From positions 682,001 through 746,000 of the forward strand of contig NZ_CP036292.1 in the NCBI RefSeq assembly GCF_007751715.1: a stretch of 64,000 nucleotides of DNA, read 5' to 3'. Position numbers and translations under genes: made by a program. Shown piece by piece: positions 142-20,954 of the stretch. Source of the stretch: Rosistilla oblonga (GTDB taxonomy: Bacteria > Planctomycetota > Planctomycetia > Pirellulales > Pirellulaceae). The stretch's first letter is position 1, and the number at the start of each line of letters is the position of its first letter. The notes beneath the pieces were generated by a model. It had not been told where the DNA came from and did not search any database. It saw only the letters and a list, made by a program, of their open reading frames with translations.

Positions 142-3100
142 CTATTCGAAGCTTAGGTTTGCGAAGAAGTCGTCGATTGCCGAGGGTTCTTCGGTCGCTT
201 GTTCGGACGCCAGTTCGCCGATCACGTCGTCCAGCGAGCCGCTGGTCGGTGAATCGAAGACGCTAGCGGTCTGTGCCGTCGCCGGAGTCGATTGCTTGGC
301 AGCGATCGTTTCGGGTTCGGCTTGCGGTTGCATGAACTCAGGCGTCAGGACTCCGTTGGCTGCTGGAATCCAGCCAGCGCTTTCTCCCTCGCCAGCGGCG
401 GCTGTCGAGTTGAGATAGTTCAGCACGATCAATGCGTCCAACGGTTCCAGTTGTCCGTTTCCGTTGACATCGACGTATGGGAAGGCGGGGACCGAGCTAT
501 CGATCGGACCCGAACCGTACCTGGCGATCGCATTGATGATTTGCAAGGCATCGATCGGCGAGACGTCGCCGCTGCCGTTGACGTCCAACGCGTTGGTTGG
601 GTTCTGGTGCGTGCTGGCTTGCACGTTGACAACGATATCTTCGACTTCACCGTCGTTCACTTTGCCCAGCGGCGATGAGACGCCGTTGGAGCTCAAGCGG
701 AAGCGACCGTAGGTGGTCCCCGGCTTGGCGGTGGCTGGGACAGCGATCGAATAGGTTTGGTCGCCATCTTGCAGTTGGATGCCGCCGGTGCTGGCGACGA
801 TCGGACCTGGGCTCCAGACGACGCGTTCGCTATCGGAGAACTGGCCGTCTTGGTTCCAGTCGATCCAAGCGTCGAGGATCGCGTTGAGACCGAGGGAGTT
901 GTTCAAGTTGATCTCGACCGCTGCGGTTCCCGATGGAGTCACAACGGCTCCGTTTGCGAAGGCGATGCCATCGTCGATGTCGCCATCGGCAGCGGAGGTG
1001 TCCGTGCCCAAGCGAGCGTCGCTTTCGGGAGTCGCCGTCGAACCGAGCGAGAAGCCAGGGGTGACGGTGTGGCGTGGGCCGTTGTTGGCTTCCAGCGTTC
1101 CGTATTCCGCAGGTGCATCGCCGTAGTCCAAACCGGCTTCGCTGGAGACGAAGATCGTGAACTGGGTCGTTCCGGTCAAAGGATCGTTCGACGACAGGGT
1201 GTTCCCCGCGTTGTCGCTGATCGCTTGGACGCGTGCCGCACCGGCTCCGGTAACCGCTTGGGCACCCTTGACGATGATCTGGTCGCCGATCACTCGCAGC
1301 GAAACACCCGACAGATCGGCCGACTGGATCGAAGACACGATCACCTGGCCTACTTCTTCGCTGGTCAAGTTGCCAGCCAAAACGATTGGCACGGCGGCTT
1401 CGTCGCCAGGCTGACCGACTTGCGTGAAGACGCTGTCGACGAGGTCGAGCGTAACGTCGGCGGCATCGGGCAGCAGGATCTGGCCGCCATCGACGACCTC
1501 TGGATTGAGGCCGAGGTCGGACAACAGGATCGCATCGCGAATCGAAGTCGCGATCGATGTCAGGTCGGTTGTCGAACTGATCTGAATCGGAGTCGCCGAG
1601 GTGTTGTTGACGCTGCCATTGAGGTCGATCTCGAAGAATCGAATTCGGCCGTCGCCGCGTCGGATGCTGAACTGCTGGCCATCGGTGACGCCTTCGGCAA
1701 GCCCCAAGTTGTTTGGGATCTGGATTCCGAAGCCGGTGGTGACGCCGACGCTTCCCTCGACGCCAAGCGTGGAGGTGCCGGTGTCGACCGATGTCAACCG
1801 ATTGCTGGAGAACAGTTGGACTTCGCCGTTGAGGTCGACGACTTGCAAACCGAGTCCCGACAGTTGGATCGCTTGGGCGATCGCTGCGGAGACCTGGTTG
1901 GCCGATTGAGGTTCGCCAGTGCTGGTGCTCGGCGGGATCGAGATTGCGACGTTTCCGGCAAACGCGCTGCCGTTGGTGTCGAATTCGAAAGTCCGTTGGC
2001 TGACACCGTCGAAGATGACAAAGGTTTCGCCATCGTTGACGTTGGCGAAATCGCCTGGCAGTGCGGGGACCGTCAGGATGATGCCGCGTTCGATTTCGAA
2101 CGGCGTTTCAACCGAATTGCCGTCGATCAAACGGATCTGTTGGCCATCGGTGTAGCTGCCGGAGTCCAGCGATTTCAGAACCGCTTGGGCATCGTTGAGC
2201 AGTTCGATTCGGTAGACCGAATCCTCTTTCCAGCGTCCGGCCAGCGGAGTCAGACGAATGATGTCGCCCGAGGAATCGTAGGCAAAGATGTAGTCTTCGC
2301 CTTCGATCAACGGAACGTTGTCTTCGAACAACAACAACGCGTCGGATGTGACCGTGGCGTCGTTGATGCCAACACCACCGCGTGGGTTGGCTGGTTCACC
2401 ACCGTCGACCAACAAGATCTCAAAATAGTTCTTGTTCGATTGGCTGATCTGTACCGAATCGGTCACCGGGTCGGCATCCGAACCGTCGCGTGAGTTGTCC
2501 AGCGGAGTGATCACGATGCCGCGAGGCGGCGCGAGGTCGCCACGATCAAACGCACCGCGGTCCTTGTAGACCAGGCTGCCCTGACCACCGGGGACGTTGT
2601 GAGTTGGGTCGTCGATCCGCAATGCGCCGTTGGCGTCGAAGTCGGGAGCCAGGACTGGCGAAGCGAGCAGGCCAACGGTCTCGCGAACGATCTGCAGTTG
2701 AGGGCGATCGGCCAGCGAGTTGATCGAGCTGTCGATCAGGTCCGACCCTTGAGCCGGAATGAAGATCGAATCGGAGGCCGAGACAAACAGGTTCGTGAAC
2801 GGATCGACAAAGCGTGCCAGGACGTTGTCTAGCAGTGCCGAGTTAGGATCGTTCAGGGCGACCGTGTTGGCTTGGAACGTGTTCGCTCCAAGCACCACAG
2901 GATGGTTTGGCACGACGTTGCCAGAGGCATCGATCGCGGTTTCGTTGTTGACAAAGACGTTGTTCAGCAGCGTCGGGCTGACGCCGTTGGAGAGTGCGAT
3001 TCCGACTCCGCCAGCCTCGAACTGATCGGCTGGTACCGAGGTGATCGCACCGACGGCGTCGATGTCGGCACCAACGGCTTGATCCAGTGCACTGCCGAAG

Positions 3101-6100
3101 TTTTGGTCGGTGATCCGCACAAACGAGATTCGGTCGTTGGGACCAAATCCGTAGCGATCGATGTCGATCTGGTTGGCACCACCGACGGATGTACCGACGC
3201 TGGTGTACGTGATGCCGTCGACGCTGACTTCGACAAGTACCGGTTCGGCGTTGCCGACTTCGAAGATTTCCAAGTCGGGCGATGCGTCGCCGCTGCCGAC
3301 CAATCGGTTGTCGACGAATTGCACGGTGATCGATCCGCCGCCACCCAAAGAGACAGCCCCTTGGCCAGCGTTTGGAGTTGGTTCGGCGACGCCACCGGTG
3401 TAGTCCGGAACGCCCAGGATCTCAGCGGAGATCTGCAGTCCCAACGCGGGAGGCGTCGTTGTGCTGGGGTCGTAAGAGACGACGACATCGGCGAACGAGA
3501 TGCTGCCGTTGGCGTACGTTGTCCCATCGTAGGTCGCTGGGCCGGGCGATTCGGTTGGGCTGATCGTGCCGCCAATGATTGTGTTGTTGACGATTCGATC
3601 GAACGCAACCATCGAGCGTTGCGAGCCGTTGGATGTGTCGATTCCTTGCACGTTGATGCCGCCGGAGCGGTTGTAGGCAAGCAGGTTGCTTTGCACCACA
3701 ACTCCGGGAGCCAGGCCGGCGTGGACGACGCCGTTGGCATCGACGTAGGAGTTCAGTTCGACCAAGTTCTTGGGGTACATGAACTTGCCGACGTCGGCAC
3801 CATGATCCAGATCGATTCCGAATTGCGAGGAGTACGAAACCGCAACTCCTTCGATCTTGATAACGCCCTGCTCTTCGCTGCCGGTGTTCGAATCGCCGCG
3901 GCGATCCAAGGCCAACGCCTGAGTCGATTGAGCGAACAATTCAACGGTCGGCAGTTCATCGGTGCCAGGCTTGCGCGAATCGCCGAGGATTTGCGACGAC
4001 AGGCCCGACAGGTTTTCGATGATGTTGACGTTCCCCGACAGGTTGATCCGCGAATCGCCCGCCGCGGCGGCTGTTGCGGAGGTCTCTCCGCTGGAGCTCA
4101 ACGCGCTGATGTCCAACAACGCTTGGACGTCGGGAAGATTGATCGCATCGGTGATCTTCGCCGCGATATCCGCTGCGGTTTCCGAAACGCTTTCGCCGCT
4201 GATCGGATTGACCACGCCGGTGCTGTAGTAGATCGGAACGCTGCCTTCCAGCGGTTCGATAGCCGAAGCTTCGTTGACAAACTCAAACGTGATGCTGGTT
4301 TGCCCGTCGCTGAGCGTGAAGCTCAGACGCGTGTCCGGATCGATGTCCTCGAGCGTCGGGTCGTTGTTCCGCAGTAGGATCAAATCGGCCAGAGCGGTCG
4401 CGGCAGCGTCGAGCTCTTCGGCGCTGAGGGTCTCGAGCGTCACGCCCTGCACCAAACGATCGTTGGTGTCGAAGGATCGGAACATCGAAACCGGGTTCGG
4501 CAGGCTCTGCGAAAGGACGTATTCGCTGGCTCCACGAATCTCCAACTGGTATTCGCCAGTTTGAGTCGAGGCGACGTCGTCACCATTGAGGTCGAAGCCG
4601 CTGTTGGGGACAAAGTCATTGGTGTTGCCAGCGGAGGTGACAAATTCACCTCGCTCGCGGAAGCCGATGATGAAGTCGTCCAGGTAGACGCCGCGGTGAT
4701 CGTTGTCGCGAGCCATTTCAACGGTTGGCGAACCAAAGGCATCACCGGTGCGAACCGGGATGTTCAGCGGGCCAGCGTTGTTGATTCGCAATCCAGGCAG
4801 GCTCAGCACGCCACCTTGCTGCGTGATGATCTGGCCGGCTCCCAACGTGTCGCGAATCGCGTCGGCAATCGCCGAAGCGACTTCGGTCGCGGTCATGTCG
4901 CGGTTGATGTTGACCGGGATGCCGCTGGATCCATCGTTGCCGACAACATCGATCGTGCTGTTGGCCGAGAAGAGAGCGGGTCCGGTGCCGTTGAGGATCA
5001 CTTGATCGCCGGCGACGCGGATGTCGTAAGGCCGCGTGCTGACAAGTTCCAGCGAATAAGCTCCGCTCTTGCCAAACGTGCGTCCGCCGAGGTTGTCCGT
5101 CGGATCGTAGTTGCCGTTGCCTTCGCCGCTGATGCCGATGTAGTAGGTGCCGTCGGCGGGAGCTTCAAAGGAGACGACGGTGTTGCCATCGACCGACAGT
5201 TCGCGAGCCAATTCGACGCCTTGAGCGTTAAACACTCGAGCGATCGGATTCAACGCGGGGGCCAGAGTCGATTCGGTGACGGTCAACATGATCGTTTGGC
5301 CGGCCGACAGTTCCATTCGCATCATGTCGACGTCGACAGTTTGCTGCGAACCATTGGGCGTGCCGATCGAACCGTTGGCGTTGATCGTCGTTTGACCGCC
5401 TGGGACCTGGAGAATGTTCGCAGTCGACATGTTGTCGTTCTGCTGCGACGCGTCCTGGTCGGTGTCGTAGTCGGTGTTGGTGACCGTGGTGTAGTTCGCG
5501 ATCGCGTCGTGCAGCGATTGTGCGATCTCTTCGCCGCTTTGCGTAGGGTCGTAGACGACCGCAACGTTTGGACTGAGCACGGTCGATGCATCGGTCGTGA
5601 ACTGGTAGACCACGTCGTCGATTGCGATCAATTCGCCGTTGGCAATTTGGTTGCCGGCGGGGATTGTCAACAGTGGCGACAACACGAACTCGTAATCGCG
5701 GCCGCTGATCTGGAAGCGATCGCCATCGAGGATCTCTTCCCCGGTGACTGCTTGCAGTTCGGATTGACCAAACTCCATGCTGCCCGAGGTGCTGAATTCG
5801 AATCGCAGCTTGAGGTCTTTCTGACCCGCGAAATCGTCCAACGCGATGCGAGCTTGTCGCCAAGTGCCGGTGTTGTCAAACGTTTCTTGAGCCTGGTCCA
5901 AAGTCAACACATCGCTGACCGAAAGGTTCGGATTGACAGTGCTTGCGGTTGCCGAGTCGCTGTTGGTCGACAGTAGGAATTCGCTGCCGTCCTCATCGAC
6001 CAGATAGACTCGCAGCGAGTCCTCTAGTTGGCGATCGCCATCGCTATCGGTTTCCAGGAAGTAGTTGAAGTAGAACGTCGGCAGGTCGGCGGAATTGTAG

Positions 6101-9100
6101 CCTTCCAAGCTGAACGCGTTGCTGACCAGTTCGCCGTGGGCACCACCAGCGAAATCGTAGGTTCCGTTGACCGTCGTGCCATCGACGCGAGTCGTCCGGG
6201 CGTTGAGCGTGCCGGTCGAGATCGTGTCGTCCAAACCGAAGTACCAGCTGGTTCCGCCAGCGGTCGCGGTTCGCGTGTCGTTGAACGTGGCGTTGATGCC
6301 GTGGCCAGGCAGCGTGATCGGAGTCGTGCTGCCCGCGAACGTGTCACTGGTGACATGCCACAGGTTGTAATCGAGATTGCCGAAGTCGAAGCCGGTTGCT
6401 CCGGCAACTCCTGTCGAGATCCGCGACGCACCGTTGGCGAAGATCGGCTGCAGTTCACCACGCGTGTTGAACGCATAGATGTCGCCGTTGCCGGTGATAC
6501 CAAACAGCAGGTCGGAATAAGCACCGCCGGCGAGGTTTTCAGGACCTGCCGAGAGGCCGGTGAAGTTGATCCCCAACAGATCGGTCGCGGTGTCGACGTA
6601 ATCGCCGATGTTTTGCGTGAAGTTAACGCGAACCGGAGAGATGACGCCCGAATCGATACGGTACAGACCGCCCGCGTTGCTGACGGCATACATGTCGCCG
6701 CTGGTCGGGACTGCGATGCCGGTGACTTGGCCGCCAGGAGCGATGCCCGCGACGTCCAGTGCTCCCGCCGCGGTCAGCACATTCGCTCCGCTGAACGCAA
6801 CCGTGTTGCCATCGACAGTCGCGGTGACGCTGGTCAACAGACCTGAATCGACAGCGGCTTGGATCGCATCGACGACGCGTGCTCCGATATCCGCAGCGGT
6901 ATCGTCGACGTCGAACGGAATGACAGTTGGTCCACCGGTGGTGTTGGCGGTTCCCACGATCGAAATCGCTTGCCCGACGCCCAGTGGCGTATCGAGGTCG
7001 AGATCGATGATCGGGTTGTCGGTGAAGTCGATCCGCGTGCCAGCGGTTGCGATCGCAACTTGGTTGGCTCGCAGAACGTCGGAGACGGCGCGAGTCAGGT
7101 CGGTGGCCGAGAGGTCTTCGTCGACGACGATCGCCGTTGCGTTGGCGGTGGTGATTCCATCGGCACCCAGCGAGCTAACGCCCAGTCCGATCGTGGTCGC
7201 CGCTCCGGTGGCACCGGTCAGGACGATCTCGCCGGTGTTCGATGCGGTCGCACGGATTCCGATGTCCGCGGCGTTGATCGCCGAGGCCAAGATGGTTGCT
7301 GCCGAAGCATCGGTCGTCGAAGCATCGAGATTTACAGCAAACAAGTCGGGACGCGAGAAGTCGCGGCCTGTAAAGTCGCGGCCGTCGCTGTCGAATTCAA
7401 ACGTATACGCCATGCCAGTCGACTTGCTGGTCAACGTAACGCGTGAGCCTTCGGCGACACCGCCTGCCAACGGATCTTCGGATCCGACGACGTCCAATCG
7501 AATGCCCGTGTCGAATTCGAACAACTGGCCGCCGACGGTGATCGTTTCACCGTCCCGCAGGAAGGTTCCCCCGCGGACGTTGCTGCTCAACTGGATCGCC
7601 GATCCCAGATCGAACTGGAACAGCACCGAACCGGCGTTAACAAAGTCGCGGATCGTGAAGGTCAAGCCATCGGTCAAGCTTGGTGCCAGGAATCCGTTGG
7701 CGTCGACCACCGATGCGGCGGTCACGCCCAAGCGGGTGCTGGGCAGGTTGTTTGGATTGCCGGTCTCGATGTAACCGCGTTCGCGTGGGTCGGTGTAAGC
7801 TCCTGCGAATCCGGCGGCTGGCGGATTTGCTGGCAGTCCAACGCCATTAATATTGCCTGTCGAAGGATTGATCTCCCACAGGATGTTGTTGGTCCAAATG
7901 ACTTCGTTGCCAGGACCGCGGTCGCCAACGATAAACCCACGTTCGGCACCGTTGACCGCGTCGAAGGTGATCGCGTTGACGGTCACGCCCGAATCGGTTT
8001 GCACGATCGTTCGCGTGACGTTGCCGTTTGCATCGACCGTGGCAAGCGTTTCGTGAGTGGTCAGGTTCGTTCCGGTGGGCGTCAGGTCGGTGACGTTACC
8101 GAAACCTGTATCGATGTTGAAGTAGTGCCAGGAGGCGTCATCGACGATGCCGTTGATGTTGTACCCGAACAAGTCGCCGTTGGCACGCAGCGCGATGTCG
8201 TTGAAGATCTGTCCGCCGGTGGTGCCGATCGTTCCGTAGTTTTGCCCGGTGTAAGCGTTCACCAGACGAAGGTTGTCGGCGCTGCCGCTGGTGCTGACGT
8301 ACAACTTCATGTCGTTCAGCGTCAACGGACTCGCAGCGGTTATGGGGTCAAACAACAGCGATTGCAGGGTCGTTGGAGCGTAGGTGCTGCCGCCGACAAA
8401 GCTGACGTGATCCTCGGCGATTCGGATCAACGATTCGATCGGTTCGAGTCGGACCAACGGATTGGTTGCCGCGGCGGTGGTGAATTGATCCAGCACCGAT
8501 GGCATGTTGTTCAAGCCGCTGATCGCAACGTAATAGGTCTGCGAATTGCTGGTCGCATCGCCTTGAGCACTCAGTTCGACCGCACCGATGAATGGATCGG
8601 CGGTGCCGGTTGAACCGCGTGACAGCGAGGTGAAGTCGGACGAGTTCGGGTTGCCCGGTTGGTCGTCGGCAACATTGCTGTCCAGACCGGTCAGGATCAA
8701 TTGCCCGTTTTGGTCGAAGACCCACAGCGAGAAGTCGCCGCGTCCGAGGCCGTCGGCGTAATCGAGATCGAAGACCGTCGAGACGTAGTTTCGCAGGCTG
8801 CTCTCGCTGGCCGAGTCGGCGATCGAGAACTGGAACCAGTCGATGTCGGTGTCCGAACTGATCGCACCGGCGATCGAAAGCGAATCGTTCGAATTTGGAT
8901 CGCCTTGCGTGCCGTAAGGGCCCAGCTGTTGAGCGGTTGCAAGCGTGTCGTTGTTGTCGCTGCCAGCTTGGTCGATGAATTCAACCGCGTCGCCCAACAG
9001 CGGCGAATTAAATGGCTGGCCAATCACCGAGACGCCGGTGGTGGCGTAACGGATGTCGGCGAGGTTCAAATACGAACCGGCGGTCTCGTCGCTCTCGGCC

Positions 9101-12100
9101 AAACGAATGCTCAATTCGTAAGGGCCCGACGTCAAACCGTCGTATTTGCCTTCGTCGATCTTGGCGCCGGTTACTGGCGAGAAGAGCTTCGAAACCGGAT
9201 CGTTCAGCTGCAGGTTGCTGCTGCGAACGCGGACCTGATAGGTGAAGACTTCGCCCGTCTCACCCGGCAGCACAACGCGCAGACCGGGATCGTTCGGGTT
9301 GGTCGAATACAGATCTTGCGGCGTGTTGAAGGCCGAGTTCGCCGAAGCGGTGAACATCGAATTGTTGAGCGAGTTCACTTGTCCGCTGCTGACGGTGCGT
9401 TCCAGCGAGCCCGCGTTTTCGTCGCGGATGATCAGTCCCGAATCGATCGCTTCGGAGATCGACCCGTTGGAGATCGCTACGATGCTGTCGGAGATGCCGT
9501 CGTTGTCGGCGTCGTCGCCGCTAGACATCACGCGAACCAGTTCGATCACCGAATCGAGCGAGCTGTTGGTGCGGTCGATCTCCAACCAGACCTCGGTTCC
9601 CGCTTCGGCGTCAAACGAGTAGACGTCGACGTCGGAAGGTTGATCGATGTTGCCGTAGACTTGGAATCCGATCCGGCGGTTTTCGCTGCCAGCGGAGGTC
9701 GACGGAGCCAATTCGCCCAGGTATTGAGCCAATGCGATTTGGTCGTTGCGATTGACCGACAGGTCCCCTTCCTGTTCGACAGCCGCTTCGACGTTGCGAT
9801 CGTGAGCCGCTTCGCGAAGCACGATGCCATCCCAATCGCCCGGCTTGCCGAGGCCAACGGTGTCGTCGAAGACGTCTTCGATCAATTCGAGTGCCGACGT
9901 GATCGTGACGGTGGTTGCGGTCGGGTTCACCAACCAAGCGTGTGCCGTGGTTGTGATCGCTGGCCCATAAACTGGTGCTGGGAGATCGGTGACGTTCGCC
10001 AATGGGACCGATGCGGTGTCGATCGTTCCCGTGGGTGTGAACGGTAGGTTGAACACGGGGTCGGTGATCAGATCGGGGAATTCGTCGGCGATCCAACCTT
10101 CGTAGTTGGCTCCTTCGAGTCCCGTTCCCTGTTCGAACGTGCCGTAGTGTCGGAAACCAACGCGTTCGGGACCGTCGAGAACGGTCACGCGGTAATCGTT
10201 GGTGCCCGGCGTTCCCTCGGTGAACAACAGGTCGCCCGCGTCGCTGGCGATCACTGGATCGTAGTAGTTGATGAAACGCAAGTCGCCCAGCGGAGTCGGG
10301 CTGGAGAGCGTCAGTTTGGTGATCAGCGTGGGCGATCCATCTTCGAACGATTGTTCGACACGCCAATTGATCAAGCCGTTTTCGCCGGTGAACGTTCCTT
10401 CGCTGTAGACGACATCGTCCGATAGGAACGTGGTCGGCGTGGTGATCGTTGTGGTACCCAGTTCGACCGCAGCACCGTCGGCACCGACATCGATGAAGTT
10501 CAGGTAATCGAACAACGCGTCTTGCTGTTGGAAGAACGTGTTGGCGCCCTGGGTGGTGACTTCGTTGAATCCTCCACCCACGGTAGCGCCGACACCACCG
10601 CCCGCTTCGGGTTGGAACGAGAAGTGGCCCGCGACGTCGTTGGCGACGTCGTTGTCGATGATCGTGCCGCGAGGGATCTCGGGGCCGGTTGGCAACAGCA
10701 GAGTTGTGCTTCCGATTTCGTCGTTGCGGCTGTTGTTGGTATCGGTTTGCGGCTTGCCTTGCGTATCGAAGCCCGAACCGACCGTGTCGTCGGACAGCGA
10801 TGTCAGGATTACCGATTTGCCTGGCTGACCAATCACTTGCAATGCACCGCCAATTCGATCGGCCAAGCCGTTGAATTGCTCTGCGGATCCACTGGCGTCG
10901 CCGCCAGCGATGATCGTCGCCGGGGACTGCTCGGATTGGAACTTCACGACCAGGCTGCGGTCGGGAGCACTTTCCAGTCGCAGGCTGCCATAGACTTCGT
11001 GGTTGGGGATCGAGATCGTTCCTCGCACGACGTGAACGATGTCGGTGTCGTCCCAGACGCCAGCTGTGGCAAGTTCGCCGCCGCGGACCTCCATGCCGTT
11101 GATGGCGTTGTTTTCCAGGACGTTATCGAAGACCAAAGGTCCCTGGTTGCCAAGGCTGGTGCCCTGCACTTTCTCCAAGCGTCCGATGCTTGTTCCAGGA
11201 TCGCTGACGTAGGTGTTGTCGAGCGAATTGAGGTCGAAGTTCATCGCGACGGCGTCGTTGTTGATGAACGTGTTCGAAGCGATCGTTGGTTGTGCACCAC
11301 GCACAAAGATAACCGCTGCCTCGTGCGTCTGCATGCCGGTGCGATCGCTGTCGCCAGCTGCAAAACCGGTTCCGCTCTCTTCCACGCGACTGTTCGTCAA
11401 ACGCAGATCGCCCTGGTGGACTTCGATCGGATTGAAGAACGACAGCTTGCCGTCGATCCGCGCTCCGCCGCCGGCTCCCGTGACCCGGACGTGATCCAAG
11501 CTGGCCTGAGCTCCCGGGCCGACGTAGATGCCGCCCCAGTCTCCTGCTTGGAAGACGGTGTTGGCGTTCGCTTGGTTGGTCGAGAAAGTTCCGCCGCGAC
11601 CGAAGCGTTGGTCGTCGAGGCTGGTGAAGACGATCTGTTGGCCAGCGGTTCCTTCGGCCAGCAACTGGGCTCCCTGTTCGACTTCGATGACCGCACCGGA
11701 CAGCTTGACGATCACGCCGGGGTCGATCGCCAAACGAGCATCCATTCGCGGACGCAGGTTTTCGATCAACGTCATCCCGCTGACCAATCCGGCGTCGGTG
11801 AATTGAGTGGATGTGTTGTCGGAGATCAACGCGATCATGCGGAATGCATCGCCGTTGAACGATCGGTAGACGCGGCGTGCGACCACGCTAGGGTTGGCCG
11901 ACGTCGGTAGATTGCTCAACTGGATCGTGTTGTCGTCGATATCGATCCCGGGAACGCTGATCGCTTCGGTGGCAAACGAAACCGCAAGTTCGTTTCCGTT
12001 GGCGTCGACGTAACTGACCTTGTATTCGTATTCGCCCGCAGGCAGTTCGCCGCCAGCGGTTGCTGTCAGTTCGACATCGTCGACGTTGGGGCGATTGACA

Positions 12101-15100
12101 TCGATCGCGGCTCCGGCGGCTAGTCCGGTGTCGCGGAATTCGGTGCTGCTGCCGTTGAGCGTTGCCACCAGTTGATAGCTGCCGCCATCGACCGATCGGT
12201 ACAGTCGGCGAGCGACAAAATCGCTGCCGGCAGGAACCGCTGGCAATTGTTCCAACTGGATCGTTCCGTTGGCGGCGGTTGTCGTCACGGTGCCGGTCGC
12301 GTTGGAAACGGGGCTCTCGTTGCCGTTCTGCGTCACGTACGACAAGCGGTAGCTGTATTCACCAACGGGCAGAGTGCCGCCCGCGGTTGCGGTCAAGCGA
12401 ACGATGCGTGTTGGTGGTGCTGTCGATTCGACGATCGCACCGCCGGGAGTTCCTTGGATCTCCAGGTTCTCGGCGATCACGTGAACGACGTCCAAGTCGT
12501 CGAAGCGGGCTTGCACGGAGAGCTTTTCAACGCCGTTGCCGTCGCGAGTCTGCGAGCGGATGAACATTCCGTTGATCGAATTGTCTTCGAACAGAACGTT
12601 GTAGACCGACGGGCCGACTCGCGTGTAATCGGGAGTGGCTTGACCTTCGAAGAGCGTGAACTTGTCGTCTTCGAACGTGTTCGCGGAAGCTTCGATCGCA
12701 GCGTCGGCATTGCTGGTGAAGGTGCTGTTGGCGATCGTGGCGCGAGTTCCGGAGAGTTCGATCGGGCTGATCACTTCCGGCTTCGCTTCGACAAGAATCG
12801 TACCACCGCCGTAACGGAAATCACCGTATTGGACGTGGTTCAAGAAGATTCCTTCGGCTTCGTAATCGATCCGGCTCTCGTCGACCTTATCGACGTCGGA
12901 GCGGAAGTCGATACCGCCCCAATCTCCCGGCGACGCAACGTTTCCGCTCTGCGTGCCGCCGATCGAAGTGTCGGCCAGCGATGTGAAGACGACGTCGCCG
13001 CTGACGGGAGTTACCGTCGCTTGGCTGCCGTTGGCTCCAACAAACAATGGAGTTCCCAAGACCTGCAGCGAACCGCCGCTGAAATCGACCACGGGGCTGC
13101 TGCTGCCGACGCCGATGCGGGCGCGGCGAAGCTTCAGGATCGAACCCGAATCGATCATCACGGTGACGTCTTGCGGGACTTGGAAGCTCGATCCGTCAGC
13201 CAATTCGCGGCCGAAGTCATCGAATCCGATCAGGTACGGTTGGTTGTCGGCGGTGGTCGCCAGGTTGCCGTCGCCGCTGGGCAGGATCCGGATGATCTCG
13301 GTTCCCTGCGAGGTCGCGCCGGACAAGGCTGTCGAGATCGTGGTCACAGCGCCCTTGGCTGTTCCGCTGATCGCGTTGTTGACCATCGGAGTGATCGTGC
13401 CGCCATCCTTTTTGACGAACACGGTGTCGGTGAACGATGCCGATTCGAACCAGAAGTCGAACGCACCGCCAGCGATTCCATCGTTGTCGCCGTCGAGAGC
13501 GATGCCGGTGGTGTCGGTGATCGTCGTTGCGCTGGATGGCTTGAACGACATCCGCAGTTCGTAAGCCCCTTCGCTGAGTCCGCCGAGTCCCGAATCTTCG
13601 ATCATCGGGTCGTAGCTGTCGTTGCCGCTGGCGCTGACGCCGATGTAATAGGTGCCGGCGGGCAGGTCGACGGTGATCTCGGAATCTTCGCTCCAATAAT
13701 CGTCGTTCCCCGCCCATTCTTCGATCGTGCCGTTGGATAGCTCGCGATACAGTCGCAGGTTGGTATCGAGCAAGCTGGCGCTGCCGGCCAGTCGTTCGGC
13801 AAACGTTTCGATCGTCACCTCGCCCGAGGTTGGCACCGAAAATTTGTAGATGTCGATGTCGGTGCTATCGGGCCGGTAGGAGTACTGGCCTTCGATGATG
13901 TCGCGAGGCGACGGATACAGCGGATCGGCGCTGGCGTCCAATGGCGACAGGAAGTCCGAGACGCCGATCAGATCTTTGACCATCCCGGTGGCCAGTTCAA
14001 AGAACTGTTGGCCGAACAAGTCGTCGTCGGATTCGTCGACAAGTCGCGAATTGATCACGCCCAGGTCGTCGGAGACCTCCCAGCTGACGCTGGTGTTGAG
14101 GGTTTCGCCAACTGCGATCTGCAAGCCCATGTCGGCGCTTTCGACAAACTGCACGCCCAGGTATTGGCTGTACAGATCCAACACTTCGCGAACACGTTGC
14201 TTCTGCTGTTCGGTGATGTTGTTGAACAGAACGCGATCGTCGTCGACGGTGGCCGTCGTCGGATCGTCGCCGCGGTATTGGCCGAAGAAGTTGTAGAAGT
14301 AGGTCGAGATGCCATCCAACGCGTCGGCTTGTGGCGCTCCGTAGCTGGAAGGATCCTCGGGACGGAATTCCTGCACGCCCGGTGCACCGGCACCGCCGGG
14401 GAAGTCGATCAGGTATTCGTTGTTCGAAACCGGGACGCCATTGATGAATTCCGTCTTGGCGATCGCGCCTTCGATCACAACCGAAGAGATGTTGTTGGGG
14501 GAGACGATCCAGTCGTTGCGGATGTCGCGAGCCAGAGCGAAGCTGTCGCCAGGTTCGACGACTGCCGGAAGCACGGTCGGATCGGTTCCGCGAACATCGG
14601 TTTCGCCAACGCGCAAGCGGAACTGTTTGACATCGGTTCCCGGAAACAGACTGTACAGGTCGCCGGAGAACTGCAGCACGGCAACGCCGGTGCCTGGGTT
14701 GTAGTTGACCGACACAGGAGTTCGGGTGACGTCGTCGGCGCCCGTTTCAGTGCCGCCGGTCGAGATCAATTGATACAGCGCCGTGTTCCGTACGGTGCTG
14801 GCGTCCAGCGGGTCGTTGAGGTCGAAATAGACCCAGACCTGATCGCGCAGCTGTTGCCCGTTGACGATCGGTTGTGGCACGATGGCTTGAATCGTCGGGG
14901 CCGAGTTGATCGTGAATTCGATCGTTTGGTCGACGCCATTGTTGAACTTGTCGCCCTGAGTGTTCTGCAAGGCGTTGGCGCTGGTGCCGTCGATTTGGAT
15001 GCGGTAGCGATCCTGTGGCAGGTCGTCGGCAAATCGGAAGACGACCTCGCGTTGGCTGGCATCGACAAAGCCGACGTAGCCGGGGACGACTTCGATATCC

Positions 15101-16104
15101 AAGTCGCCGTTTTGCAGCGAGAATTCGATCGGCGAAAACGCGCTGAGGTCCAGACCGATGGTCGACGACGCACTGCCGGTTTCCAGTTCGGCGGAGACCA
15201 GCAGGCTGGCTTGCGGGTGGGCGTTGATCGCCGTCACCAATTGGCCGACGGTGGTTCGCGACGCGGGGTTGCTGTTGATCAAGACTTCGATCCGGTCCCC
15301 AATGACCGACACGATCGGGGGCGCACCGGCGACCCGGAACGATTGCCGGACATCGATCGCCAAATCTTGACCGGCGACGCCACTTGCGACTGCGGTGAAG
15401 CGAACTTGAGTATTGGCAGCGCCCAGCTGCGATGTCGCTTGAGCGCGATCGGAGCCCTTCAGCGTCAGCGTCTGACCCTGTTGCGCAGTCCGGCCGACGT
15501 CGAAGAACGTCTGCCCGCTGACCGATGCGACGCGCAGCAAGGCCGCGGCATCGGGGTTTTGCGCGATTCCGTATTGAATGTCCGAAGCGCGAGTGACCAG
15601 AGCGGGGTTCGAATTCAGTTCGATCTGAATCCGTTGTCCTGCCACGGTGACGATCGGCAGCGTTTTGTCGGTTCGGCTGACCTTGGTGAAGACGATCTCC
15701 AGATTGTCCCCCGCCGATCCCGATTGAACCGCTTCGAACGTCAGTTCCACAGCCCCCGACGAACCGAGATCGGTCACCGCCGAAGCGGAGGCGAATTCGC
15801 CGTCGCTGCCAGCGCGGATGATCTTGATTCCGTCGAGCGAATTGGGGTCGAGCGAAGCCAATTCGTCGAACCGCAGCGTGATCTCGCGCGGCGACGTGTT
15901 CAGCTCTGCCATATCCTGCAGCAACGGTTCCGTGTCAGGCTGAACGCCAACCAACATCGGACCGGCATCCAGCATCTGGCGGCCTTCGAGCGTCTCCAGC
16001 AGCGACCGACGGCTGTTCAGCCGCTGGCGTTTCGCAGCGCGATCGCTTCTGCGGGACTTGTTGGAACTGTCATTCACCGACGATCCAGTTTTCCGGATAG
16101 CCAT
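142..16104 (-). CDS. Giant secreted multidomain adhesin with C-terminal GEVED and dockerin domains (5320 aa)
   Basis: Predicted exported cell-surface or matrix protein. The basic N-terminus is followed near residues 34-46 by a motif of the planctomycete LEPR-XLL type (RRSLLETLEGRQML), seen at the start of many giant planctomycete proteins. Then come Ig-like Big repeats (about 50-150 and 400-500), a stretch resembling part of a metalloprotease fold (about 620-690), a pre-peptidase C-terminal-like domain (about 735-855, ending in a TYYIGVS motif), long parallel beta-helix stretches, further PPC-like modules, a DYGDAPAEYG...GEVED domain (about 4990-5160) and a two-repeat type I dockerin (about 5165-5226, DVNGSGDVSPIDAL and DVNGNGQLEPLDAL). 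The start is supported by GAAGAGG 6-7 bp upstream of the ATG. The frame is open over 16 kb. Likely role is attachment or matrix; the dockerin implies calcium-dependent docking, with no cohesin partner in the window. High confidence that it is real, moderate for role. Confidence 0.93.
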   Translation of the reverse strand: MAIRKTGSSVNDSSNKSRRSDRAAKRQRLNSRRSLLETLEGRQMLDAGPMLVGVQPDTEPLLQDMAELNTSPREITLRFDELASLDPNSLDGIKIIRAGSDGEFASASAVTDLGSSGAVELTFEAVQSGSAGDNLEIVFTKVSRTDKTLPIVTVAGQRIQIELNSNPALVTRASDIQYGIAQNPDAAALLRVASVSGQTFFDVGRTAQQGQTLTLKGSDRAQATSQLGAANTQVRFTAVASGVAGQDLAIDVRQSFRVAGAPPIVSVIGDRIEVLINSNPASRTTVGQLVTAINAHPQASLLVSAELETGSASSTIGLDLSAFSPIEFSLQNGDLDIEVVPGYVGFVDASQREVVFRFADDLPQDRYRIQIDGTSANALQNTQGDKFNNGVDQTIEFTINSAPTIQAIVPQPIVNGQQLRDQVWVYFDLNDPLDASTVRNTALYQLISTGGTETGADDVTRTPVSVNYNPGTGVAVLQFSGDLYSLFPGTDVKQFRLRVGETDVRGTDPTVLPAVVEPGDSFALARDIRNDWIVSPNNISSVVIEGAIAKTEFINGVPVSNNEYLIDFPGGAGAPGVQEFRPEDPSSYGAPQADALDGISTYFYNFFGQYRGDDPTTATVDDDRVLFNNITEQQKQRVREVLDLYSQYLGVQFVESADMGLQIAVGETLNTSVSWEVSDDLGVINSRLVDESDDDLFGQQFFELATGMVKDLIGVSDFLSPLDASADPLYPSPRDIIEGQYSYRPDSTDIDIYKFSVPTSGEVTIETFAERLAGSASLLDTNLRLYRELSNGTIEEWAGNDDYWSEDSEITVDLPAGTYYIGVSASGNDSYDPMIEDSGLGGLSEGAYELRMSFKPSSATTITDTTGIALDGDNDGIAGGAFDFWFESASFTDTVFVKKDGGTITPMVNNAISGTAKGAVTTISTALSGATSQGTEIIRILPSGDGNLATTADNQPYLIGFDDFGRELADGSSFQVPQDVTVMIDSGSILKLRRARIGVGSSSPVVDFSGGSLQVLGTPLFVGANGSQATVTPVSGDVVFTSLADTSIGGTQSGNVASPGDWGGIDFRSDVDKVDESRIDYEAEGIFLNHVQYGDFRYGGGTILVEAKPEVISPIELSGTRATIANSTFTSNADAAIEASANTFEDDKFTLFEGQATPDYTRVGPSVYNVLFEDNSINGMFIRSQTRDGNGVEKLSVQARFDDLDVVHVIAENLEIQGTPGGAIVESTAPPTRIVRLTATAGGTLPVGEYSYRLSYVTQNGNESPVSNATGTVTTTAANGTIQLEQLPAVPAGSDFVARRLYRSVDGGSYQLVATLNGSSTEFRDTGLAAGAAIDVNRPNVDDVELTATAGGELPAGEYEYKVSYVDANGNELAVSFATEAISVPGIDIDDNTIQLSNLPTSANPSVVARRVYRSFNGDAFRMIALISDNTSTQFTDAGLVSGMTLIENLRPRMDARLAIDPGVIVKLSGAVIEVEQGAQLLAEGTAGQQIVFTSLDDQRFGRGGTFSTNQANANTVFQAGDWGGIYVGPGAQASLDHVRVTGAGGGARIDGKLSFFNPIEVHQGDLRLTNSRVEESGTGFAAGDSDRTGMQTHEAAVIFVRGAQPTIASNTFINNDAVAMNFDLNSLDNTYVSDPGTSIGRLEKVQGTSLGNQGPLVFDNVLENNAINGMEVRGGELATAGVWDDTDIVHVVRGTISIPNHEVYGSLRLESAPDRSLVVKFQSEQSPATIIAGGDASGSAEQFNGLADRIGGALQVIGQPGKSVILTSLSDDTVGSGFDTQGKPQTDTNNSRNDEIGSTTLLLPTGPEIPRGTIIDNDVANDVAGHFSFQPEAGGGVGATVGGGFNEVTTQGANTFFQQQDALFDYLNFIDVGADGAAVELGTTTITTPTTFLSDDVVYSEGTFTGENGLINWRVEQSFEDGSPTLITKLTLSSPTPLGDLRFINYYDPVIASDAGDLLFTEGTPGTNDYRVTVLDGPERVGFRHYGTFEQGTGLEGANYEGWIADEFPDLITDPVFNLPFTPTGTIDTASVPLANVTDLPAPVYGPAITTTAHAWLVNPTATTVTITSALELIEDVFDDTVGLGKPGDWDGIVLREAAHDRNVEAAVEQEGDLSVNRNDQIALAQYLGELAPSTSAGSENRRIGFQVYGNIDQPSDVDVYSFDAEAGTEVWLEIDRTNSSLDSVIELVRVMSSGDDADNDGISDSIVAISNGSISEAIDSGLIIRDENAGSLERTVSSGQVNSLNNSMFTASANSAFNTPQDLYSTNPNDPGLRVVLPGETGEVFTYQVRVRSSNLQLNDPVSKLFSPVTGAKIDEGKYDGLTSGPYELSIRLAESDETAGSYLNLADIRYATTGVSVIGQPFNSPLLGDAVEFIDQAGSDNNDTLATAQQLGPYGTQGDPNSNDSLSIAGAISSDTDIDWFQFSIADSASESSLRNYVSTVFDLDYADGLGRGDFSLWVFDQNGQLILTGLDSNVADDQPGNPNSSDFTSLSRGSTGTADPFIGAVELSAQGDATSNSQTYYVAISGLNNMPSVLDQFTTAAATNPLVRLEPIESLIRIAEDHVSFVGGSTYAPTTLQSLLFDPITAASPLTLNDMKLYVSTSGSADNLRLVNAYTGQNYGTIGTTGGQIFNDIALRANGDLFGYNINGIVDDASWHYFNIDTGFGNVTDLTPTGTNLTTHETLATVDANGNVTRTIVQTDSGVTVNAITFDAVNGAERGFIVGDRGPGNEVIWTNNILWEINPSTGNINGVGLPANPPAAGFAGAYTDPRERGYIETGNPNNLPSTRLGVTAASVVDANGFLAPSLTDGLTFTIRDFVNAGSVLFQFDLGSAIQLSSNVRGGTFLRDGETITVGGQLFEFDTGIRLDVVGSEDPLAGGVAEGSRVTLTSKSTGMAYTFEFDSDGRDFTGRDFSRPDLFAVNLDASTTDASAATILASAINAADIGIRATASNTGEIVLTGATGAATTIGLGVSSLGADGITTANATAIVVDEDLSATDLTRAVSDVLRANQVAIATAGTRIDFTDNPIIDLDLDTPLGVGQAISIVGTANTTGGPTVIPFDVDDTAADIGARVVDAIQAAVDSGLLTSVTATVDGNTVAFSGANVLTAAGALDVAGIAPGGQVTGIAVPTSGDMYAVSNAGGLYRIDSGVISPVRVNFTQNIGDYVDTATDLLGINFTGLSAGPENLAGGAYSDLLFGITGNGDIYAFNTRGELQPIFANGASRISTGVAGATGFDFGNLDYNLWHVTSDTFAGSTTPITLPGHGINATFNDTRTATAGGTSWYFGLDDTISTGTLNARTTRVDGTTVNGTYDFAGGAHGELVSNAFSLEGYNSADLPTFYFNYFLETDSDGDRQLEDSLRVYLVDEDGSEFLLSTNSDSATASTVNPNLSVSDVLTLDQAQETFDNTGTWRQARIALDDFAGQKDLKLRFEFSTSGSMEFGQSELQAVTGEEILDGDRFQISGRDYEFVLSPLLTIPAGNQIANGELIAIDDVVYQFTTDASTVLSPNVAVVYDPTQSGEEIAQSLHDAIANYTTVTNTDYDTDQDASQQNDNMSTANILQVPGGQTTINANGSIGTPNGSQQTVDVDMMRMELSAGQTIMLTVTESTLAPALNPIARVFNAQGVELARELSVDGNTVVSFEAPADGTYYIGISGEGNGNYDPTDNLGGRTFGKSGAYSLELVSTRPYDIRVAGDQVILNGTGPALFSANSTIDVVGNDGSSGIPVNINRDMTATEVASAIADAIRDTLGAGQIITQQGGVLSLPGLRINNAGPLNIPVRTGDAFGSPTVEMARDNDHRGVYLDDFIIGFRERGEFVTSAGNTNDFVPNSGFDLNGDDVASTQTGEYQLEIRGASEYVLSQSLPNPVSMFRSFDTNDRLVQGVTLETLSAEELDAAATALADLILLRNNDPTLEDIDPDTRLSFTLSDGQTSITFEFVNEASAIEPLEGSVPIYYSTGVVNPISGESVSETAADIAAKITDAINLPDVQALLDISALSSSGETSATAAAAGDSRINLSGNVNIIENLSGLSSQILGDSRKPGTDELPTVELFAQSTQALALDRRGDSNTGSEEQGVIKIEGVAVSYSSQFGIDLDHGADVGKFMYPKNLVELNSYVDANGVVHAGLAPGVVVQSNLLAYNRSGGINVQGIDTSNGSQRSMVAFDRIVNNTIIGGTISPTESPGPATYDGTTYANGSISFADVVVSYDPSTTTPPALGLQISAEILGVPDYTGGVAEPTPNAGQGAVSLGGGGSITVQFVDNRLVGSGDASPDLEIFEVGNAEPVLVEVSVDGITYTSVGTSVGGANQIDIDRYGFGPNDRISFVRITDQNFGSALDQAVGADIDAVGAITSVPADQFEAGGVGIALSNGVSPTLLNNVFVNNETAIDASGNVVPNHPVVLGANTFQANTVALNDPNSALLDNVLARFVDPFTNLFVSASDSIFIPAQGSDLIDSSINSLADRPQLQIVRETVGLLASPVLAPDFDANGALRIDDPTHNVPGGQGSLVYKDRGAFDRGDLAPPRGIVITPLDNSRDGSDADPVTDSVQISQSNKNYFEILLVDGGEPANPRGGVGINDATVTSDALLLFEDNVPLIEGEDYIFAYDSSGDIIRLTPLAGRWKEDSVYRIELLNDAQAVLKSLDSGSYTDGQQIRLIDGNSVETPFEIERGIILTVPALPGDFANVNDGETFVIFDGVSQRTFEFDTNGSAFAGNVAISIPPSTSTGEPQSANQVSAAIAQAIQLSGLGLQVVDLNGEVQLFSSNRLTSVDTGTSTLGVEGSVGVTTGFGIQIPNNLGLAEGVTDGQQFSIRRGDGRIRFFEIDLNGSVNNTSATPIQISSTTDLTSIATSIRDAILLSDLGLNPEVVDGGQILLPDAADVTLDLVDSVFTQVGQPGDEAAVPIVLAGNLTSEEVGQVIVSSIQSADLSGVSLRVIGDQIIVKGAQAVTGAGAARVQAISDNAGNTLSSNDPLTGTTQFTIFVSSEAGLDYGDAPAEYGTLEANNGPRHTVTPGFSLGSTATPESDARLGTDTSAADGDIDDGIAFANGAVVTPSGTAAVEINLNNSLGLNAILDAWIDWNQDGQFSDSERVVWSPGPIVASTGGIQLQDGDQTYSIAVPATAKPGTTYGRFRLSSNGVSSPLGKVNDGEVEDIVVNVQASTHQNPTNALDVNGSGDVSPIDALQIINAIARYGSGPIDSSVPAFPYVDVNGNGQLEPLDALIVLNYLNSTAAAGEGESAGWIPAANGVLTPEFMQPQAEPETIAAKQSTPATAQTASVFDSPTSGSLDDVIGELASEQATEEPSAIDDFFANLSFE

Positions 16105-18997: not shown

Positions 18998-19480
18998 ATG
19001 AACCTGCCCGAATCGCCCGACTATTTAAATTCCCTGCAAGGCGGCTGGGAGGCGCTCGGCAACGGGGCGCCGACGCTGGTCGCGTTGGCTCAATTGTGTG
19101 CTCGTTCGATGGTCGAAGGAACGCGCGACAAAACTCCGCTGAGCGTCGAAGCGAAAGCGATCTTGTATGCAGCTCGCAATCGAGGCGTGATCGAGGTCCG
19201 CGGAGTGAACACGGCGTTTGAAGCGACCGCGCGATTGTTGGCCGTCTATATCGAAGAGGGCGAACATCGAACGATCGCGTTTCGCAATCGGGAGCGGCCG
19301 CAGGTGACGGTCCGGTTTTTCGAAGCCTTCTGCCAACTGTGTCGCCACGGTTTGGTGTTGCATCACCTGTACCGCGACTTTTCGTTGACCGATCGGGGAT
19401 TTGCGATCGCTGCGAAGATCGAACGCGAAGAGGTTGCCGAGGCGCTGGGCGAAGCGACCGAATTTGGGCTGCACGATTAA
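18998..19480 (+). CDS. Conserved-looking hypothetical protein (160 aa)
   Basis: Not recognised as a named family. It is a soluble, mostly alpha-helical 160-aa protein without a signal peptide. Features include a QLCARSMVEG segment, a Cys pair in the middle (FFEAFCQLCRHGLVLHHLY) and an acidic helical C-terminus. The second half resembles a winged-helix or small regulatory fold (FSLTDRGFAIAAKIE), which is only a suggestion. It is divergent from lpxB with about 140 bp between starts and is followed by a convergent gene whose terminator lies at 19531-19570. Base composition and codon use match neighbouring genes. Confidence 0.72.
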   Translation: MNLPESPDYLNSLQGGWEALGNGAPTLVALAQLCARSMVEGTRDKTPLSVEAKAILYAARNRGVIEVRGVNTAFEATARLLAVYIEEGEHRTIAFRNRERPQVTVRFFEAFCQLCRHGLVLHHLYRDFSLTDRGFAIAAKIEREEVAEALGEATEFGLHD

Positions 19481-19530
19481 TCGCAGCAGCGGTCGTTGGC
19501 GGGCGTGGCGGAGATCGCCGATGTCGGCGC

Positions 19531-19570
19531 AAAAAAAAAACGGCCCGGAGAGCCGAAGCTGACCGGGCCG
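19531..19570 (-). terminator. Intrinsic terminator of the Cys-rich protein gene
   Basis: Read on the minus strand, an 8-bp GC stem (CGGCCCGG with CCGGGCCG, 14-nt loop) is followed directly by a run of ten T. It lies about 40 bp beyond the stop of the Cys-rich gene. Confidence 0.85.
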
Positions 19571-19611
19571 TTTATCGAATCACGTCTGAAGGATCTAGCA
19601 TCCTACTCGCA

Positions 19612-20460
19612 TTAGCGAGCGTAGCGGGTGCTAGCCTGAATGACGCGACGCTTGCTGTTCAAGTAAGCACTTGGGTCTACAACCGGTGCTGGTGGCATTG
19701 GAGCAGCGTCTTCAACTACTGGAGCTTCAACTTGAACCGAAGTTCCGCCGTTGCAGCTCGAGCAAGCTGGTGCTGCTGGAGCAGCGTAGCTACCTGCACA
19801 TCCGCAGCTGTCGCAAGCCGAGTCGCAGTCGCTCTTCTTGCAGCACTTCAGGCCGCCGAACAACTTCGACAACAGGCCACCGCTCTTCTTCTTTCCGCAT
19901 GGGTCGCAACCGCAAGCTGGTTCGCAGCAAGAAGCCGATCCGCAGAGCGAAGTTTCGCATCCGCAAGCTGGTTCGCAGCAAGCAGCAGCTTCACATCCGC
20001 AAGCTGGTTCGCAGCAAGCCGAAGTTTCGCAGCACGAATCGCAGCCGTTCTTCTTTCCGCCGAACAATTTCGACAGCAGGCCACAGCACTTCTTCTTCGA
20101 GCCGAAGCACGATTTGCTGTCGCAGCAAGCTGGTTCGCAGCAAGAGGTTTCGCAACCGCAAGCTGGTTCGCAGCAAGATGCACCGCACAGCGAAGATTCA
20201 ACTCCGCAGGTTGGTTCGCAGCAAGAGGTTCCGCAAGCCGAAGCTTCGCAACCGCAGGCTGGTTCGCAAACCGATTCACAACAAGAAGTTTCACAACCAC
20301 ATGCTGGTTCACAAACGTCCGCACAGCCAGTTTCGCAGCAGCTGCTGCTTCCACCACCACACTTCAGTCCCAACATACGGTCCAATAGGTCAAATCCGAA
20401 ACCTTGCGAGCAGATGCTCATTCCGATAATCAAGGTCGTCGACAGGATTGCACGCTTCAT
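19612..20460 (-). CDS. Cysteine-rich secreted repeat protein (282 aa, about 19% Cys)
   Basis: Starts with a signal peptide (MKRAILSTTLIIGMSICSQGFG) and continues as a low-complexity protein with about 53 cysteines. Its core is a degenerate 10-12 residue repeat of the form CCEPACGCET, present about eight times and interrupted twice by KKK..GLLSKLFGG blocks and by CCDSKSC. The C-terminal third is Ala/Pro-rich and ends with a Cys-free tail. An AGGAG ribosome binding site lies 10 bp before the ATG and an intrinsic terminator follows, so it is a single-gene unit. The Cys density suggests extensive disulfide cross-linking or metal binding. Planctomycete walls are known to be rich in proteins with cystine, so a structural envelope role is plausible but inferred. 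Confidence 0.85.
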   Translation of the reverse strand: MKRAILSTTLIIGMSICSQGFGFDLLDRMLGLKCGGGSSSCCETGCADVCEPACGCETSCCESVCEPACGCEASACGTSCCEPTCGVESSLCGASCCEPACGCETSCCEPACCDSKSCFGSKKKCCGLLSKLFGGKKNGCDSCCETSACCEPACGCEAAACCEPACGCETSLCGSASCCEPACGCDPCGKKKSGGLLSKLFGGLKCCKKSDCDSACDSCGCAGSYAAPAAPACSSCNGGTSVQVEAPVVEDAAPMPPAPVVDPSAYLNSKRRVIQASTRYAR

Positions 20461-20954
20461 TGCACCACGTCTCCTAACGTTAGTTCGACGTTTTTTGAAA
20501 CCTAGTTTTCACTCACACGGAAAGTGGCGGCCAAGGACACGGTCGGCGGACGAAGTCGCCGCCGATCAAGCCCTGATGGGCCGGCTAGCACTTTAGAGGT
20601 CAACATTCCAGGTGGAACGCCAACCCTCCGACTTCGTTCTGCTTGCACTGCCACTGACAGTCCCACCTAGGGATGGTGAGACCAGTGAGTTCAATTTTGT
20701 TCAGGTTCTAGACCAGCTCAGACCATCCACTAGTCTGATATTCGCACTGGCCTTAGTTGTCGTCTCAGGCGGCCTCAACGCGAGGTAAGGCACTGGACTC
20801 GTAACACGTCACTTACCGTATCGACCCGGAGATCGGGTTCTCTTGACATCGGAATGGTAATTTCGGCAGGATGCTGAAGTTGGGCGGATGCGTAAAGAAT
20901 GCCGGTTTGACGACTTTTTCTGACCGTATCGGTTATCGCATGGAAATGCGTCGG
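20461..20954. promoter_or_regulatory. Long structured intergenic region upstream of the Cys-rich gene
   Basis: About 500 bp without a convincing gene. It contains several inverted repeats: CCAGGTGG (20608) with CCACCTAGG (20663), GGATGGT (20671) with ACCATCC (20722), and a GGCGGAC/GTC.GCCGCC hairpin near 20548. TTGACA at 20843-20848 has no good -10. It may contain the 5' leader of the Cys-rich gene or a small RNA. No known RNA family was recognised. Confidence 0.4.

Follow-up and report, generated by a model that had tools for sequence, protein, structure and literature searches.

Wall proteins of planctomycetes

Planctomycete walls were described as mainly protein in papers of 1984 and 1986 (cited in PMC8567305 and PMC5287468), and they are reported to resist boiling in SDS (PMC8567305, PMC5287468). 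According to PMC2754498, the sacculus is made of protein and contains disulfide bonds. Since peptidoglycan is reported in several planctomycetes (PMC5287468, PMC10632474), the wall does not, in some of them at least, consist of protein alone. Reports place proteins with the YTV domain (PF07639) among the major constituents of Gemmata walls boiled in SDS (PMC5287468), describe them as rich in Cys and present in wall preparations of R. baltica (PMC8567305, citing Hieu 2008), and count them in a nearly planctomycete-only group of essential genes in Planctopirus limnophila (PMC10632474). The wall proteomes described in two of these papers are those of Tuwongella and Gemmata, both Gemmataceae (PMC8567305, PMC5287468). 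The original prediction called the proteins of these walls poorly described, which needs tempering in view of the YTV proteins reported as major wall constituents (PMC5287468, PMC8567305). As a kind, the Cys-rich planctomycete wall protein is already known, with the YTV proteins as the only ones named in the literature found.

Two other systems offer a comparison. Chlamydiae, of the same superphylum as the planctomycetes, have disulfide cross-linked, Cys-rich outer-membrane proteins, OmcA and OmcB. The keratin-associated high-sulfur proteins are cross-linked matrix proteins with repeats of the CC-x-P-x-C style.

A Cys-rich protein gene and its surroundings

The window analysed here is a stretch of 64,000 nucleotides from Rosistilla oblonga. 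Its minus strand holds, at 19612–20460, an intact ORF for a Cys-rich protein of 282 residues, called family A here. The span originally predicted was exact to the base; the gene lies on the minus strand, and a plus-strand reading of the same span contains a stop. Counting gave 54 Cys (19.1%), as had been estimated, and 12 CC pairs. The mean Cys content of 25 long, non-overlapping ORFs of the window is 1.09%, in a set picked mechanically that includes a spurious ORF opposite the family A gene and so omits the gene itself; at this background the binomial probability of at least 54 Cys in 282 residues is about 4e-49. The ORF and its neighbours are conserved in other species, which marks it as a real gene, and a chance or spurious ORF was ruled out by the conservation of homologues, the kept neighbours and the codon adaptation. 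The plus-strand ORF at 19339–20388 was rejected as an antisense open frame, with a codon adaptation of only 0.544.

Upstream, on the opposite strand, lie genes for a Cupin_2 protein and two PQQ proteins, and downstream, again on the other strand, an ORF that no Pfam family matches, followed by lpxB. TPR, LpxB, Cupin_2 and PQQ proteins make up the Pfam neighbours of the gene, and the layout suggests that it is transcribed alone. Elsewhere in the window, the minus strand of 142–16104 carries an ORF of 5320 residues with a C-terminal region that looks dockerin-like by eye (DVNGSGDVSPIDALQIINAI...), probably a giant exported surface protein.

Anatomy of the protein

The protein opens with a signal-peptide-like N-terminus of 22 residues (MKRAILSTTLIIGMSICSQGFG; 20395–20460, minus strand, as are all features below), with MKR, a hydrophobic core and SQGFG. 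This start and its cleavage site were judged by eye, as was its conservation among the listed family A members, and it agrees with the signal peptide originally proposed. A lipoprotein was rejected: there is no lipobox, residues 14–17 reading MSIC, with Cys17 preceded by MSI. Cys17 is found in 22 of 31 family A members and replaced by S, G, T or A in the others. Next comes a block conserved in the alignment of homologues, FDLLDRMLG (residues 23–31; 20368–20394), with a predicted helix at residues 23–29.

The remainder alternates between Cys-rich segments and short landmarks. Segment 1 covers residues 32–127 (20080–20367) and ends at a first LLSKLFGG block (residues 128–135; 20056–20079); segment 2 (residues 136–195; 19876–20055) is followed by a second such block (residues 196–203; 19852–19875), for which a helix is predicted at residues 196–201. 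The two blocks described earlier as breaking the repeats were thus found at residues 128 and 196. Segment 3 and a linker (residues 204–237; 19750–19851) carry the last Cys at residue 236, and the chain closes with a conserved tail free of Cys (residues 249–282; 19615–19716), of the form ...PMPPAPVVDPSA...RRVIQAS.YAR. No second copy of this tail was significant in the own genome, the best other match having an E value of 0.5.

The repeat had been called degenerate, and rightly so, since there are six copies of CEPACGC[E/D] (residues 50, 65, 97, 150, 162 and 179) and only two of the exact CCEPACGCET (residues 96 and 161). Across family A, the commonest spacings between Cys are i+4, i+2 and i+1. 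If the window protein were digested completely with trypsin, 48 of its 53 mature Cys would end up in peptides of 83, 53 and 61 residues, and no more than three of its peptides would measure 7–30 residues. Only 2 of the 31 members have fewer than two peptides in this range, so detection by routine tryptic proteomics would be difficult, not impossible.

Homologues and synteny

Short peptides of the window protein served as seeds for a scan of 84,980 species genomes, which therefore favours its repeat wording. The scan gave 90 relatives, of which 80 were kept; these correspond to 78 loci, all with planctomycete titles. The C-terminal DPSA/DPAA tail was present in 33 of these loci. The 31 members referred to as family A are these 33 plus the window protein, less three fragments whose starts are missing (L037, L049 and L051); a short sequence of 101 residues with 12 Cys (L039) was kept. 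They measure 101–374 residues (median 276) and contain 11.9–24.5% Cys (median 18.8). Rhodopirellula baltica, which can be cultured in the laboratory, has an orthologue (L017).

Both ends are common to the members: the start is of the type MKRTIxTxxxVLGxxxCSQSFG, followed by an FDLLDRMLG-like block, and the tail resembles PMPPAPxVDPSASxxxxRRVIQASxxVR. In 26 members, two or more internal LLxKLFG-like blocks were counted. The arrays between the landmarks vary in number and wording (among others CCEPACGCE, CCEAPSC, CGCEEPA, CDAGNGCAEPAC). With a cut after residue 22, the mature Cys count is odd in 16 members and even in 15, which argues against one fixed internal disulfide set. The alignment comprises 27 of the available sequences, with the rows of L030 and L038 stopping before their tails where the match coordinates ended early.

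PQQ genes flank 28 of the 33 tail-bearing loci, on the divergent strand in all 28; a cupin gene is found at 24 and lpxB at 11, in all 11 cases on the same strand as the Cys-rich gene. Some flanks behind these counts are short, and the three fragments begin inside the gene; L030 and L031 had no neighbour match at all. Most tail-bearing loci are one orthologous locus. The gene is real and orthologous: both ends, the segment layout and the divergent PQQ genes are kept while the Cys repeats vary freely.

Distribution

The family profile matched 3 of 148 genomes across the phylum at E <= 1e-6; all three belong to the same family as the window, and they include the genome from which the window comes. 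Outside the order there were no matches among the 144 genomes of this sample, and its one other genome of the order had none either. Within the order, the Pirellulales, 59 of 78 genomes matched and 19 did not, including 10 of the 13 genomes of one family (f2); the profile is of low complexity, so that some of the 59 matches are paralogues, and diverged copies may account for some of the 19 misses. Among the genomes sampled, family A is restricted to one order.

A profile of the tail, for which all members except L031 were used (30 of 31), detected it at E < 1e-3 in 16 of 29 distant loci, these being the best matches only, from other genomes. Several of the remaining 13 end in a variant such as PTPDASA, and a stricter tail pattern matched just two of the 29.

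YTV domains were found in all 78 genomes of the order, with or without family A. Their co-occurrence is uninformative because YTV is universal in the order. The 19 genomes missed by the profile, some of which may hold divergent copies, all have YTV domains, which argues against family A as an indispensable wall part.

A module related to the tails of YTV wall proteins

Three of the 78 loci turned out to be YTV proteins (L075, L077 and L078). Pfam recognises nine YTV stretches in the one from R. baltica BR-MGV (L078) and 11 in that from TBK1r (L077); the protein of Rhodopirellula SM50 (L075) is, by its sequence, a YTV protein with the same C-terminal module. In L077 and L078 the last 75 residues comprise two Cys arrays with GGLLKKLFGG between them. 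A search with this tail in 199 genomes of the window's family gave matches in 32, and in 16 of the 199 the match lies inside a frame of 590–689 residues (13 genomes of genus g191 and three of g192). Twelve of these 16 frames were inspected (L169–L180). All have 14–18 YTV/YKV motifs by pattern count, 11 have an LLKKLF or LLKRLF block and one a variant. The module at their ends is of the type CCEPACGC-GGLLKKLFGG-CC...CGCE. Two match the R. baltica tail at 100%; R. baltica is probably among the 12 genomes, and other named YTV loci may be.

Alignment scores between the YTV tail and family A and group B (see below) were compared with composition-preserving shuffles, giving z values of 8.2–12.4; four tests were made, and in none of them did any of the 500 shuffles reach the observed score. 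The control, a generic stretch rich in Cys from the own genome's YTV protein, gave z 3.5. Family A and the YTV tails appear to be related through this module, judging from the alignments.

The module is not general among YTV proteins. No LLxxLF block was present in 21 right-closed YTV frames from 30 other loci of the order fetched for their YTV domains, nor in five YTV frames read in the own genome; some of the frames compared belong to different sorts of YTV protein that contain few Cys. CCNSGCGC closes the main YTV protein of the own genome, which lacks the LLxKLFG module.

Like the window protein, the YTV proteins have an export-like start, are rich in Cys, built of repeats and strongly biased in codon use, and in two genera their C-terminus is a related module of Cys array and LLKKLFGG. 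The window protein differs from them in being shorter and without a YTV domain, and in belonging to a family that was not found in some YTV-bearing genomes of the order.

Comparison with other Cys-rich proteins

No Pfam family matches the window protein even at E 10, and no NCBIfam family does. None of 27 family A members matches the YTV domain (PF07639) at E 0.01, and neither the window protein nor these 27 match a metallothionein family in Pfam or NCBIfam. One of the 27 matches Keratin_B2_2 (PF13885) at E 0.0034. The window protein has no such match, and its likeness to the repeats of keratin-associated proteins is an analogy only. A resemblance to chlamydial OmcA and OmcB would be one of general character, the window protein having no match to any Pfam family.

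The original prediction asked for paralogues with the same repeat. A group B protein of the own genome has repeats of that type, with z 14.9 to the window protein against shuffles (G000:C1, about 4360190–4360687; L080/L168). Group B, a second and shorter Cys-rich family, shares a signal-peptide-like start and CEPACGCE-type arrays broken by Lys-flanked LFGK/LLKKLF blocks. It differs in its N-terminus (MRRVIVPALL or MRRMILPAFL), in its length of about 175–205 residues and in the lack of the VDPSA/RRVIQAS tail. A third Cys-rich, exported-looking protein is encoded in the own genome at C1 3539011–3539493 (L082); its CGCEQPSCGCEP repeats lead into a long C-terminal part rich in His and Pro. By eye, a protein of Rhodopirellula sallentina (L071) is possibly similar to it.

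Expression signals

Sequence inspection and a comparison of 68 leaders identified a leader with a Shine-Dalgarno-like AGGAG before the ATG (20461–20478, minus strand). This AGGAG is 10 bases from the ATG, in agreement with the ribosome binding site predicted. GGAGA was found at most 20 bases from the start in 66 of the 68 sequences read, and GGAGANGT in 52. Over 40 sequences, the 20 bases before the start hold 15.0 bits of conservation, against 2.9–5.2 for three neighbouring genes, whose start sites were assigned automatically and less surely. The leader type AAGGAGAYGTGGCTC (window 20461–20480, minus strand) is conserved in most of the 68 sequences, including the spacer bases between the Shine-Dalgarno sequence and the ATG.

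A probable intrinsic terminator at 19531–19573 (minus strand) bears out the one originally noted, with an 11-pair stem enclosing a 3-pair hairpin, followed by a run of ten T (folding z = −3.6). A simple consensus scan for terminator-like sites near the family A gene found two, against 1.5 expected by chance. A scan of the same simple kind detected no sigma-70-like promoter on the minus strand between 19400 and 21000.

The reference for codon adaptation was a set of 15 ribosomal-protein genes, chosen by reading through a single stretch of the same genome. Against it the family A gene scored 0.804 (0.781 without Cys codons), the YTV gene 0.815 and group B 0.858. The family A value exceeds that of all 25 window ORFs (0.506–0.779) and of 14 of the 15 ribosomal genes (0.677–0.813). 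Synonymous resampling from 16 window ORFs gave the family A gene z 3.5, or 4.6 without the giant ORF in the background; values for neighbours were 2.1–5.3 for the two PQQ genes and −2.4 and −0.7 for lpxB. The codon bias counts less for family A because the adjoining PQQ genes have part of it. Combined with the conserved leader, it would fit high expression of the gene.

Structure and oxidation machinery

The structure model of the window protein was uninformative (mean pLDDT 50, pTM 0.22). Its only helices, modelled at low confidence, are in the signal peptide and at residues 23–29 and 196–201, the latter two being landmark blocks. Searches for relatives of solved structure gave chance-level matches only (best E 1 with the single sequence and 0.87 with the profile); the best single-sequence match, to a carbonic anhydrase through the Pro-rich tail, was dismissed at E 1.

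The first proposal, in which the LLSKLFGG blocks serve assembly or contact, is plausible from the sequence, because at least two blocks occur in 26 of the 31 members and block 2 is a predicted helix, although of a poor model. A contact with the membrane is not pressed, since the helical moments of the blocks (0.19–0.60) lack a consistent amphipathic signal.

The own genome has one VKOR-family match (L165, C1 4448528–4448926; E <= 0.001) and no DSBA-family match at the same threshold. This combination suggests a VKOR-based oxidation pathway for this Cys-rich envelope.

Proposed function

Family A is probably an abundant protein that is exported and becomes part of a disulfide cross-linked matrix in the Pirellulales wall, as a companion of the YTV proteins. 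A role in the wall or envelope is supported, indirectly, by the export-like start, by the fusion of a related module to YTV proteins and by a codon bias typical of highly expressed genes. On these grounds the wall component of the original prediction is retained, with the co-occurrence with YTV saying little. The reading is weakened by the lack of a DSBA-family match and by the own genome's main YTV protein, its other YTV frames read and the 21 right-closed YTV frames from other genomes, none of which has the LLxKLFG module.

The protein would be exported by Sec and its signal peptide removed. The three Cys-rich arrays, split by short, mostly Lys-flanked LLxKLFG blocks, would then be oxidised to disulfides, and the Cys would form an irregular matrix cross-linked within and between molecules instead of one fixed fold. 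Such an irregular matrix is the most likely form because the number and wording of the repeats drift freely, and so does the parity of the Cys count. Both the LLxKLFG blocks and the conserved tail may position the chain in the wall beside the YTV proteins, the blocks as short contacts and the tail as a retention or assembly signal, and family A, once cross-linked, could fill the space between YTV proteins or link them. Wall location, disulfide state, cross-linking to YTV proteins and the roles of blocks and tail are all what we infer from these features.

Pirellulales are budding, attaching bacteria, and a secreted matrix, holdfast, fibre or bud-pole protein, cross-linked outside the wall and not part of the sacculus, would have the same export-like start, richness in Cys and high-expression codon bias. 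The 19 of 78 genomes of the order in which family A was not found also speak for such a role. It is nevertheless rather unlikely given the similarity of the module to that of the YTV wall proteins, and the window protein carries no Pfam domain of any kind.

The metal-binding function originally offered beside the wall role gained no positive support. An exported, metallothionein-like binder or buffer, its Cys arrays binding soft metals (copper or zinc, for example) in the envelope, would account for the very high Cys content and the short spacings, and the even split of odd and even Cys counts does not require disulfides. Such a binder is unlikely, however: the start leads out of the cytoplasm in a genome with a VKOR-family match, no metallothionein family matches, the Pfam neighbours are not metal transporters or sensors, and the related module is fused to YTV wall proteins.

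That the similarity to the YTV tails is a convergence of low-complexity, Cys-rich sequence, uninformative on location, is very improbable; repeats rich in Cys, Gly, Glu and Pro do inflate alignment scores, as the z of 3.5 for the YTV control illustrates, but the shuffles that raised family A and group B above 8 preserve composition, and the match covers an ordered combination of Cys array, GGLL..LF block, CC and Cys array.

The preferred reading, a cross-linked matrix in the wall, would place family A beside the reported wall proteins as a new case. Family A, its layout and the module it has in common with YTV proteins appear to be undescribed in the open-access literature searched, where the matches listed contain no name, localisation or description of the family and no proteomic, localisation or redox data on the protein or an orthologue. 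It may have been missed because of its few usable tryptic peptides and because the wall proteomes described in the papers cited above are from Gemmataceae, family A having no match among the 144 genomes sampled outside the order. Tentatively, a composite wall can be pictured, in which a YTV scaffold would be filled and cross-linked by an order-specific, keratin-associated-like matrix of family A and group B, with LLxKLFG and Cys arrays as a transferable docking or cross-linking module, swapped onto the scaffold itself in some genera. Beside the YTV proteins, family A thus stands as another Cys-rich family, apparently highly expressed and carrying a YTV-related module, and is put forward as a candidate for the cross-linking matrix of these walls.
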